NCBI RefSeq assembly: GCF_003439925.1
Contig: NZ_QQRR01000002.1
Location: 620,001-684,000 of the forward strand
Direction of reading: 5' to 3'
Length of the DNA: 64,000 bases
DNA from: Haloprofundus halophilus
Lineage (GTDB): Archaea; Halobacteriota; Halobacteria; Halobacteriales; Haloferacaceae
The notes under the pieces are model-generated. The model was given only the letters and a program-made list of their open reading frames with translations, ran no database searches and was not told where the DNA came from. The translations under genes were made by a program, and so were the position numbers. Below, in pieces: positions 57,818-61,040 of the stretch. Within the stretch, counting starts at the first letter, position 1; each line of letters begins with the position of its first letter.

Positions 57818-58087
57818 TCACGACTCGATCTTTTCGACGATTCGCTTCGCCTCGTTGCGCGCGGTATCCTCGCCGGCTTGCTTCTTGATCAGGACGCTTT
57901 CGACCTCCCACTCGTCGCTGTTCTCCCGTTTTCCGGTTCGGACTTCGCTCCCTTCGGCGACCGACCGGGCGGCGTTCGCCGCCCAGTCGGGCGTTCTGAT
58001 CTCGTCGAACTCGTCGGGGTCGCGGAAGCGGACGTGGTAGTAGTCGTCGCCCGATTCGACGGTCTGAATCTCGGGTGCGTCGGCCAT
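57818..58087 (-). CDS. Small conserved haloarchaeal protein, unknown function
   Basis: 89 residues: IQTVESGDDYYHVRFRDPDEFDEIRTPDWAANAAR then GSEVRTGKRENSDEWEVESVLIKK, and a helical end. Strand-rich with a conserved-looking acidic loop. No named family recognised. Start ATG 58087; an earlier in-frame start would add five residues. Confidence 0.65.
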   Translation of the reverse strand: MADAPEIQTVESGDDYYHVRFRDPDEFDEIRTPDWAANAARSVAEGSEVRTGKRENSDEWEVESVLIKKQAGEDTARNEAKRIVEKIES

Positions 58088-58193
58088 CGACGTGGGTACC
58101 ACGACGAGCTGTTAAAAAGGAACGCCTGAATCGACGTGCGAGGGGTTCGACGCCGTCCGTTCGAGCGCGAAAGAGAAGTCGCGAGGCTCGGTT

Positions 58194-59264
58194 TTAATCG
58201 GCGGCGAGCCGGTGTTTCCCGGCGGTCTCGCCGAGTTCGAGCACGTCGTCGAAGAAGCCCAGCGAGTCGTTCGGGCCGGGGTTCGCCTCGGGGTGGTACT
58301 GGCGGGTGACGACGTTCAGTTCCGCGTTGGCCAACCCCTCTGCGGTGTCGTCGTTGACGTTCACCTGCGTCACGTCGAGGTCACCGGGGTCGGCGACGGT
58401 GTAGCCGTGGTTCTGCGTCGTCATCACGACTTTCCCGCTCTGGAGGTCGCGGACCGGTTGGTTGACGCCGCGGTGGCCGAACGCCATCTTCTCGGTGTCG
58501 CCGCCGAGCGCGCGGGCGACGATCTGCTGGCCGAGACAGATACCGGCGACGGCGACGCCGTCGTTCTCGACGAACGCTTCGACGAGCGACTGCGCGTTCG
58601 AGAAGTTCGCCGGGTCGCCCGGGCCGTTCGAGATGAACAGCACGTCGGGGTCGATGGCCGCGACGTCGCCCTCGGAGACGTCGTACGGGAGCACGTGGAC
58701 GTCCGCGCCGCGTTCGCGCAGCGAGGAGACGATGGAACCTTTCGCTCCGCAGTCGACGAGCGCGACGGTCGGACCGTCGCCCTCGTAGTGGCGCGCTTCG
58801 GGGACGGTGACCTGCGAGCCGATGTCGGTGTGCTCGCTCATTCCTTTGCACTTCTCCAGTTCCGCGCGGGCGTCCTCGGCCGTGGCGTCCGGGCCGACGG
58901 CGATGCCGCATTTCATCGCCCCCTCCTCGCGGACCGTCGTGACGAGGTCGCGCGTGTCGAGGTGGTCGATGGCGGGGACGCCCTCGGCGGTGAGCCAGTC
59001 GGCTACGTCGTCGGTGAACTCCCGAGCGAGCGCCGCGCGCGGGTGAACGCGAGAGGACTCGAATCGCTCTCGCCGGACGCCGTAGTTTCCGATGAGGGGG
59101 TACGAGAAGGTGAGAACCTGTTCCTCGTAGGAGGGGTCGGTGAGGCTCTCTTCGTATCCTGTGTAGGCGGTCGTGAACACCAGTTCTCCGCGGGCGCGTC
59201 CTGGCGCACGACCGCGTCCTTTCACGACGCGTCCGTCGGCCAGCGCGATGTAGGCGTCCGACAT
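58194..59264 (-). CDS. carA: Carbamoyl-phosphate synthase small subunit
   Basis: 356 residues. It hydrolyses glutamine and passes ammonia to CarB for arginine and pyrimidine synthesis. The N-terminal domain has VFTTAYTGYEESLTDPSYEEQ and SYPLIGNYG; the class I amidotransferase triad is in VAGICLGQQIVARALGG (Cys) and TRQYHPEANPGP (His, Glu), with FISNGPGDPANF between. ATG 59264 lies about 29 bases from a minus-strand TATA-like element (59289-59297). carB is not in the window. It is divergent from an Lrp-type gene across a 97-base region with an inverted repeat. Confidence 0.96.
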   Translation of the reverse strand: MSDAYIALADGRVVKGRGRAPGRARGELVFTTAYTGYEESLTDPSYEEQVLTFSYPLIGNYGVRRERFESSRVHPRAALAREFTDDVADWLTAEGVPAIDHLDTRDLVTTVREEGAMKCGIAVGPDATAEDARAELEKCKGMSEHTDIGSQVTVPEARHYEGDGPTVALVDCGAKGSIVSSLRERGADVHVLPYDVSEGDVAAIDPDVLFISNGPGDPANFSNAQSLVEAFVENDGVAVAGICLGQQIVARALGGDTEKMAFGHRGVNQPVRDLQSGKVVMTTQNHGYTVADPGDLDVTQVNVNDDTAEGLANAELNVVTRQYHPEANPGPNDSLGFFDDVLELGETAGKHRLAAD

Positions 59265-59303
59265 TACGAGAAACACATGGGACCATGGGTAATAAGTGCT
59301 TCT

Positions 59304-59329
59304 TTCGTAGCGAGACTACGAATTTCGTA
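59304..59329. promoter_or_regulatory. Operator-like repeat between carA and the Lrp gene
   Basis: Half-sites TTCGTAG (59304-59310), CTACGAA (59316-59322) and TTCGTA (59324-59329) give TTCGTAG-CGAGA-CTACGAA and the overlapping palindrome TACGAA-T-TTCGTA. They lie between the carA TATA (59289-59297) and the regulator's TATA (59333-59341), well placed to control both. Confidence 0.6.
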
Positions 59330-59361
59330 ATCGGTTTAAGGCCACCAGTACACGTCCGTGT

Positions 59362-59781
59362 ATGGACGACCTGGACCGCCGCATCCTGAACGTGCTCCGA
59401 CGGGATGCACGAACGCCCTACACCGAGATCGCCGAGCGAGTCGGCACCTCCGAGGGGACGATTCGGAACCGCGTCGAGCGGATGACCACGGAGGGAGTCA
59501 TCGAACGGTTCACCGTCTCCACCCGGACGGGCAACATCAAGGCGATGGTCGAGATTTCGGTGGAGATGAACGTCAACACGAGCGAAGTTTCGGAGCAACT
59601 CGCGGACTGGGAGACGGTCGACTTCGTCTGGCAGGTCTCCGGCGAGGAGGACATCGTCCTCATCGTCGACGCCGCCGACACGCGCGCGGTGAACGACCTC
59701 ATCACGCGAGCCCGCGAGATGGAGGAGATAAAGAGCACCAAGACGCGGCTCATCCTCGACGAACGTCTCGGGCAGGGGTGA
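59362..59781 (+). CDS. Lrp/AsnC-family transcriptional regulator
   Basis: 139 residues. The N-terminal winged helix is LDRRILNVLRRDARTPYTEIAERVGTSEGTIRNRVERM; the RAM/AsnC ligand domain follows with VWQVSGEEDIVLIVDA. Lrp-type regulators bind amino acids. ATG 59362 is 25 bases after TTTAAGG and leaderless. Position and the operator-like repeat suggest it regulates itself and carA, perhaps in response to arginine, glutamine or another amino acid; the ligand is inferred. Confidence 0.93.
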   Translation: MDDLDRRILNVLRRDARTPYTEIAERVGTSEGTIRNRVERMTTEGVIERFTVSTRTGNIKAMVEISVEMNVNTSEVSEQLADWETVDFVWQVSGEEDIVLIVDAADTRAVNDLITRAREMEEIKSTKTRLILDERLGQG

Positions 59782-59828: not shown

Positions 59829-61040
59829 ATGCCGCCCTCAGACAGTCCACGTTCGCCGCCGTCGACAGTCGAGACCGACGACCGGTGCGTCCGAACAGAC
59901 GGCGGTGCGCGAAGTGACGGTGGTGAGTCGGACGGAGTGAGACGACCCTCGTCACGAACGAAGCGAAGTGACGGTGGTGAGTCGAACGGAGTGAGGCGAA
60001 CCTCGTCGCAAGCAACGCGCAGCGACGGTGGCCACCCCACACACAGCGACCGGACGCTCGTCTTGCACCCCGAGAGCGGAAACGGCGAACACGCCCCCGA
60101 AGTCCGACGCTTGGCGACCGAACACGGGTTTTCGATCCGCGAGACCGACGCCGCTGGCGACGCGATTCGGTTCGCCCGCGACGCCGCCGAGAACGGAGCC
60201 GAGTTCGTCGCCGCCGCCGGAGGCGACGGGACCCTCAACGAGGTCGTCGAGGGCATCCGTCGCGCCGACGGCTTCGAGCGGGTCACCTTCGGCGTCGTCC
60301 CCTGCGGGACGGGTAACAACTTCGCCGAGAACGTCGGCATCGAGAGCATCGAACACGCCTTCGAGCTGTTCGAGTCGGGCGAGCGACGACGAATCGACCT
60401 CGGTATCGTCGAGTGGGGGGGCGACGAGCCGTCGTGGGCGCGAGAGTCGAAGGAACCCTCCGCGGCCCGCGGGGTGGTGGTCGAGAGCGGCGAAACGGGG
60501 GAGGACAGCGGCACCCGAGCGTTCCTCAACTCCTGCGTCGGCGGATTCACCGCCGAGGCCAGCGGCGAGACGTCTTCGGAGATGAAAGAGCGATTCGGCG
60601 TCGTCGCCTACGTCGTCAGTACGCTCCGAGTGATGACGGAGTTCGACGGCGTTCGGATGCACATCGCAACCCACGGCCGCCACGAACCGTGGTCCGGTGA
60701 CGCCGTCTCGGTGCTCGTCGGTAACGGCCGTCGCTTCCCCGTCGAGGGACGAACGCAGGCGGACATGGAGGACGGGCAGTTGGACGTCACCGTGGTCGAG
60801 GAGCGACCGACCGTCGACCTGATGGGGCAGGCGGCCGCCTCCAGGCTGTTCGGCCGCGACACCGAACACATCGACCGCTTCGAGACGCCCGCGATGCACC
60901 TCGACGTGCTCTCTGAGGAGCCGCTCCGGTTCAGCCTCGACGGCGAGATGATAGAGACGGCGTCGCTGACGATCGAAACGTTGAGCGGAGTCGTCGAGAT
61001 TCCCGTCGGAGACGCCTACGAACCCGACCCCGACGACTGA
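59829..61040 (+). CDS. Diacylglycerol/sphingosine-kinase-fold lipid kinase (YegS/LCB5-like)
   Basis: 403 residues. The catalytic domain, from about residue 75, has TLVLHPESGNGEH, AEFVAAAGGDGTLNEVVEGI and VVPCGTGNNFAENVGI, and a C-terminal beta sandwich (SLDGEMIETASLTIETL). It probably phosphorylates a lipid alcohol using ATP. The N-terminal ~70 residues contain an 18-residue repeat (RSDGGES...GVRR) not expected in this family and probably disordered; the ATG at 59829 is the first in frame, but a later start just before the kinase domain cannot be excluded. Confidence 0.87.
   Translation: MPPSDSPRSPPSTVETDDRCVRTDGGARSDGGESDGVRRPSSRTKRSDGGESNGVRRTSSQATRSDGGHPTHSDRTLVLHPESGNGEHAPEVRRLATEHGFSIRETDAAGDAIRFARDAAENGAEFVAAAGGDGTLNEVVEGIRRADGFERVTFGVVPCGTGNNFAENVGIESIEHAFELFESGERRRIDLGIVEWGGDEPSWARESKEPSAARGVVVESGETGEDSGTRAFLNSCVGGFTAEASGETSSEMKERFGVVAYVVSTLRVMTEFDGVRMHIATHGRHEPWSGDAVSVLVGNGRRFPVEGRTQADMEDGQLDVTVVEERPTVDLMGQAAASRLFGRDTEHIDRFETPAMHLDVLSEEPLRFSLDGEMIETASLTIETLSGVVEIPVGDAYEPDPDD
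59909..60033 (+). repeat. 54-bp tandem repeat (2.3 copies) in the lipid-kinase 5' region
   Basis: Units start at 59909, 59963 and 60017 (partial). Each encodes RSDGGES(D/N)GVRR followed by six variable residues. The third copy stops after RSDGGHP. Confidence 0.8.

Follow-up and report, generated by a model that had tools for sequence, protein, structure and literature searches.

A candidate three-site Lrp operator array in the shared carA-lrp promoter of Haloprofundus halophilus and other haloarchaea

The carA-lrp locus

A stretch of 64,000 nucleotides of Haloprofundus halophilus (contig NZ_QQRR01000002.1, positions 620,001 to 684,000 of the forward strand; hereafter the window) contains two divergent genes facing away from a 97-bp gap. 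The small chain of carbamoyl-phosphate synthase is encoded by carA, which runs leftward from its ATG at 59264, and a regulator of the Lrp/AsnC (feast/famine) family is encoded by lrp, which runs rightward from its ATG at 59362. It is highly probable that this gap is a shared operator array for the adjoining regulator, composed of a core operator (O1), a second site whose centre lies 20 bp from it and a third one at a distance of 51-52 bp. The regulator combines an AsnC-type helix-turn-helix domain with an AsnC_trans_reg effector domain, both above the curated cut-offs (Table 1), and is 99% identical to its counterpart in Haloprofundus marisrubri (L017). Based on synteny and a single strong match per genome, it is presumed to be the ortholog of Trh3 of Halobacterium salinarum.

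The first-pass annotation of this DNA had described two overlapping palindromes between two TATA boxes about 40 bases apart and had predicted that one Lrp protein controls both genes. Both palindromes are present (Table 1), and the centres of the TATA-like elements lie ~44 bp apart. Each element is located ~25-30 bp ahead of its start codon, and the right arm of O1 extends to the expected position of the TFB recognition element (BRE) of the lrp promoter. A scan for sigma-70 promoters found nothing, as expected for an archaeon.

Table 1 Features of the carA-lrp locus, in window coordinates
Feature	Position	Strand	Remarks
carA, carbamoyl-phosphate synthase small chain	58194..59264	-	PF00988 (E 7.7e-36), PF00117 (E 1.3e-38)
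O2, third site, TTACGAGAAACACAT, at the carA start codon	59264..59278		usually TTACGAGATACGTAC in relatives
carA TATA element, CTTATTA on the minus strand	59290..59296	-	conserved columns -31 to -28
Half-site TTCGTAG	59304..59310		usually TTCGAAG elsewhere; belongs to the site whose centre is 20 bp from O1 towards carA
N5-spaced dyad TTCGTAG-CGAGA-CTACGAA	59304..59322		half-site (59304-59310), CGAGA (59311-59315) and left arm of O1 (CTACGAA, 59316-59322)
O1, core operator, CTACGAATTTCGTAA	59316..59330, centre 59323		haloarchaeal consensus TTACGAWWTTCGTAA
Overlapping dyad TACGAA-T-TTCGTA	59317..59329
lrp TATA-like element, GTTTAAGG	59334..59341	+	conserved AAG columns +13 to +15
lrp, Lrp/AsnC (feast/famine) regulator, 139 aa	59362..59781	+	PF13404 (E 1.3e-18), PF01037 (E 1.2e-12)

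In the window alone, the palindromes are only moderately beyond chance. Perfect inverted repeats with 7-bp arms number 209 in the window, and at least one was obtained in 282 of 5000 Markov simulations of the 97-bp region. Both kinds of dyad occurred together in 45 of 5000 simulated regions, and the N5 pattern with up to two mismatches has one match in the window against 0.21 expected. Conservation across species is decisive.

Conserved sites in the shared promoter

Relatives were gathered first with the regulator protein, which yielded 80 loci (67 haloarchaeal), and afterwards through motif and genome searches. From an input of 190 loci, 24 were dropped (11 without lrp, five without carA, seven with gaps of at least 200 and one misassigned). 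Counts on the 156 distinct carA-lrp intergenic regions lean towards the motif, as 73 were fetched by it; a protein-selected set of 55 gives the same picture. The most conserved block in the 156 regions is a 15-bp core, TTACGAWWTTCGTAA, which has 0 or 1 mismatch in 144 of them and matches exactly in 50 of the 55 protein-selected regions that were usable. Its dyad retains 6 or 7 of 7 complementary positions in 146 of the 156.

The first-pass annotation had regarded the N5-spaced dyad as the operator unit and the second dyad as overlapping it. This part of the claim did not survive the comparison, as the conserved operator is the second dyad. The N5-spaced dyad is rarely perfect (6 of 156 regions, 2 of the 55 protein-selected ones) because its left arm is mostly TTCGAAG (103 of 156). 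It varies even within the genus: locus L017 has TTCGAAG, which breaks the dyad, and L325 has TTCGTAG, which makes it perfect. The TTCG columns of this arm nevertheless reach ~1.9-2.0 bits across the 156 regions, and the arm coincides in place and orientation with site 2 of the carB promoters described below. Its pattern of conservation indicates that it does not pair with the core's left arm and is kept instead as one half of a separate site, centred 20 bp from the core.

When the regions are anchored on the carA start, a third site, TTACGAGATACGTA, is conserved. Its centre lies 52 bp from that of O1 in 115 of 156 regions and 51 bp in 40. It has 9 of 10 half-site letters in 107 of 156 regions, compared with 3 of 3120 shuffles, which preserve base composition only. 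Two conserved cis signals, O1 and O2, are accordingly found in the shared promoter throughout the set of 156. The centre spacings of 20 and 51-52 bp place the sites two or three helical turns apart, as in the Ss-LrpB system discussed below. Since 20 and ~31 bp correspond to two plus three helical turns, all sites would lie on the same face of the DNA, and binding by one oligomer is possible. Read from the alignment, the real units are the 15-bp core, the half-site of the site 20 bp off and the third site 52 bp off, the last of which was absent from the first-pass annotation. The comparison thus corrects which palindrome is to be taken as the operator.

Specificity of the core operator

The genome search that had been proposed for TTCGTAGN5CTACGAA returned a single exact match in the whole 3.47-Mb genome, and the sole other match with one mismatch (L002) overlaps long open reading frames (ORFs). 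Looser searches in this genome were uninformative: with up to three mismatches the same pattern gave 105 matches per strand against 56 for the control, and TTACGANNNTCGTAA with up to two mismatches gave 58 against 9. Three other core matches with one mismatch were found, two overlapping long ORFs (L098, L100) and one preceding an ORF (L099). The looser core TWCGAWWTTCGWA occurs at three places, namely the carA-lrp gap, a site before pyrB and one place without a clear target.

The core pattern is present in 257 of 292 haloarchaeal genomes, usually at one or two sites each, and the reversed pattern, used as a control, had no match in the 292. Among 101 core sites that were followed (the G122 site was fetched twice), 82 lie in a carA-lrp intergenic region and 12 at carB. 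The rest comprise four before carB, one before pyrB, one inside a long ORF and one without assignment. The regulator was found in 33 of the 35 genomes without an exact core, with one match each at E<=1e-25. In these genomes carA is divergent in 29 of 30 fetched loci, and the 28 distinct usable intergenic regions contain the core with one to three mismatches. The core is therefore a nearly class-wide, very specific recognition site, predicted to serve one of many haloarchaeal Lrp paralogs.

A few observations were made beside this pattern. An exact core match at position 2003 of L163 (G069) has no carA, carB or lrp that could be found nearby. In a lineage with a small genome, locus L240 (G217) contains the regulator (64% identity) without an adjoining carA and without a recognisable core operator. 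A different palindrome, TTCGATTTTCGAA, occurs in many scattered copies with similar flanks in G014 and G025 (L327, L328); it looks like a dispersed repeat or the site of another regulator.

Loci in which carA and lrp lie apart

In seven loci, among them loci of Halorubrum and Halobellus, a distance of 265-794 bp separates carA from lrp. O1, the half-site and O2 are present next to carA in all seven. Next to lrp, all seven have O1 with one to three mismatches, the half-site and, at 51 bp, a third site that is weaker. The lrp-side sites are also retained in four more loci, where no carA lies within reach. Both promoters thus retain a site when the genes lie apart, and since sites occur on both sides, each promoter appears to need its own copy of the operator. 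The split loci are the best evidence from sequence for control of both genes. The prediction that a conserved operator in the shared divergent promoter allows one Lrp to control lrp and carA very probably holds, given the split loci and the chromatin immunoprecipitation (ChIP) results reported for Trh3 (PMC4177876), with the core in place of the N5-spaced dyad.

Related sites before carB and pyrB

In this genome carB lies ~95 kb from carA. A similar motif precedes it, with CTGCGAAATTCGAAA, TTACGCATATCGCAC and TTACGATGTACGAAC at 0, 20 and 51 bp; the match is weak, with three mismatches at O1, and in register. In a set chosen by carB family, the spacing between O1 and the third site is 51 in 26 of 29 scored promoters. 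In the remaining three it is 31, and site 2 is the better palindrome. One further locus of the set (L242), without a promoter motif, was left unscored. The TATA element lies ~30 bp from the core at carA and ~44 bp at carB, and the spacing of the array is unchanged; the spacing within the array is therefore kept and the position of the promoter is not. By this comparison, control would extend beyond carA and lrp to carB.

A comparison of 31 pyrB promoters gave a mixed result. Of 15 promoters that come from the window's family, including L161, which was added because of its core, 8 have a related site with up to five mismatches 79-80 bp upstream. The eight include this genome, where GTTCGAATTTCGAAA lies 79 bp before the pyrB start (L300). 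None of the 16 promoters from outside the family has a site at 79-80 bp, and two other genomes of the same genus lack it at that position (L285, L290). As a general target pyrB was rejected, with 0 of 16 outside the family and a patchy distribution even within the genus; the patchy site is a lead.

Proposed mechanism and alternative explanations

In the proposed mechanism, dimers of the regulator would bind O1, the site at 20 bp (one half of which is conserved) and the third site 51-52 bp from O1, and would be held together by one oligomer. Sites spaced two or three helical turns apart are known binding targets of archaeal Lrp dimers, and activators of the family bind a dimer site just before the BRE (PMC2995911). 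Protein on O1 would block TFB and TBP at lrp and cause negative autoregulation; repression by archaeal Lrp proteins has been proposed to act through promoter occlusion (PMC2995911). A dimer on the half-site directly upstream of the carA BRE may help to recruit the basal factors. Transcription would be shut off once the third site is filled, which at carA lies on the start and at carB covers the TATA element. The balance would be set through the state of the oligomer by an amino acid, presumably arginine or lysine; arginine, lysine or glutamine have been predicted as effectors of Trh3 (PMC4236453, PMC4177876). As an outcome, both subunits of carbamoyl-phosphate synthase and the regulator could be kept in step, though carA and carB do not form one operon.

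The sites, their spacing, their conservation and the recurrence of the array at carB are read from the sequences, and several points weigh against the full interpretation. In the window O2 is degenerate, matching 7 of 10 half-site letters, and this genome has weak versions of all three carB sites, so that some of the conserved geometry may have been lost here. In the split loci the lrp-side third site scores 6-7 of 10, and a score of at least 6 is reached by 992 of 3120 shuffles; its constant position may reflect common descent. At carB the spacing is measured to a motif overlapping the TATA element, and promoter constraint could contribute to it. Operator function in this organism is deduced from sequence comparison, and the direction of control at carA may be activation, repression or both, all of which are compatible with the sequence. 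Finally, eight such regulators with overlapping ChIP targets are reported in H. salinarum (PMC4236453), and by analogy another of them could share the site.

Several alternatives were weighed. A strong contender, albeit somewhat on the doubtful side, is that the array is correct and acts by repression at all promoters, without an activation step. Transcription would be blocked from each of three positions, namely that of O1 beside the lrp BRE, that of O2 where carA starts and that of the third carB site on top of the TATA element; the half-site just ahead of the carA BRE, however, is placed much like the activator sites described for Ptr2, LysM and Ss-LrpB (PMC2995911). It is unlikely that the site is occupied mainly by another of the cell's feast/famine regulators. 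Trh3 and Trh4 are reported with similar motifs and overlapping targets (PMC4236453); against this, lrp retains the site in loci where carA lies apart from it, and ChIP of Trh3 was positive (PMC4177876).

Slightly less probable still is that the 19-bp N5-spaced dyad is itself the operator for one dimer. It is perfect in the window and in L325 of the same genus and has its only exact match in the genome here, but the counts given above and the broken copy in L017 speak against it, as does the complementarity retained by the core dyad. Least probable of all, and very improbable, is a reading in which most of the conserved positions belong to the basal promoters (BRE, TATA, initiator) of two leaderless genes and not to regulator sites. 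In its favour, the lrp TATA-like element directly adjoins the right arm of O1, and O2 is located at the carA start. However, at carB this 15-bp palindrome is 44 bp away from the TATA element, in some genomes it is found ~80 bp before pyrB, and the core is nearly unique in each genome, as a basal element would not be.

The operator array with the adjoining regulator can be extended to a broader hypothesis, which stays tentative and is about as easily doubted as believed. A class-wide, dedicated Lrp would serve carbamoyl-phosphate supply; its rigid array (0, 20, 51-52 bp) would be read as one oligomer with a movable TATA element; and pyrB would have been recruited in some genomes of the window's family, resulting in a switch at the branch point between pyrimidine and arginine synthesis. 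With the array fixed and the promoter free to move, the oligomer model lends itself to direct testing in Haloferax volcanii.

Comparison with known systems

The circuit itself has already been published. For Trh3 (VNG1816G) of H. salinarum, ChIP signals were reported on trh3, carA and carB, with motifs conserved in eighteen species (Ashworth 2014, PMC4177876). The expression of carA and carB correlates at 0.69, and that of trh3 with each of them at 0.45 and 0.40 (PMC4177876). As in that circuit, a divergent carA and a shared promoter are found at the present locus; further common features are the Lrp-type regulator, two conserved signals and a motif at a separate carB. The window locus is an ortholog of the known circuit with a corrected operator. 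It differs in the description of core, half-site and third site with fixed spacings of 20 and 51-52 bp common to carA and carB, in the split loci with operators on both sides and in the pyrB site of some genomes. The main text of PMC4177876 does not contain the words "helical", "spacing", "octamer" or "pyrB", and the literature listings consulted showed no report of the array spacing or of the pyrB site. What is added to the circuit is the array geometry, the evidence from split loci and the patchy pyrB site.

TvFL3 of Thermoplasma volcanium is the closest ortholog with measured DNA specificity, and its profile matches the conserved carA/trh3 signals (PMC4177876); lysine is listed as its effector (PMC2995911). 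Its host belongs to a different order of archaea. The site selected by TvFL3, which we take to be TACGA(AAT/ATT)TCGTA, would be identical to the overlapping dyad at 59317-59329.

Ss-LrpB of Sulfolobus solfataricus also has three sites in its own control region, with cooperative binding and whole-helical-turn spacing (PMC2995911). Beyond its own gene it acts on genes for pyruvate ferredoxin oxidoreductase and permeases (PMC2995911). In E. coli, synthesis of the same enzyme is under end-product control by ArgR and PurR (cited in PMC4177876), but carAB forms one operon there and the regulators are unrelated.

Neighbouring features

Directly downstream of carA, on the same strand, lies a 94-aa ORF without a Pfam match (57818-58102, minus). 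Downstream of lrp, near-repeats of ~60 bp (CGAAGTGACGGTGGTGAGTCGGACGGAGTGAGACGA...) occupy 59905-60040, at the start of a diacylglycerol-kinase-like gene.
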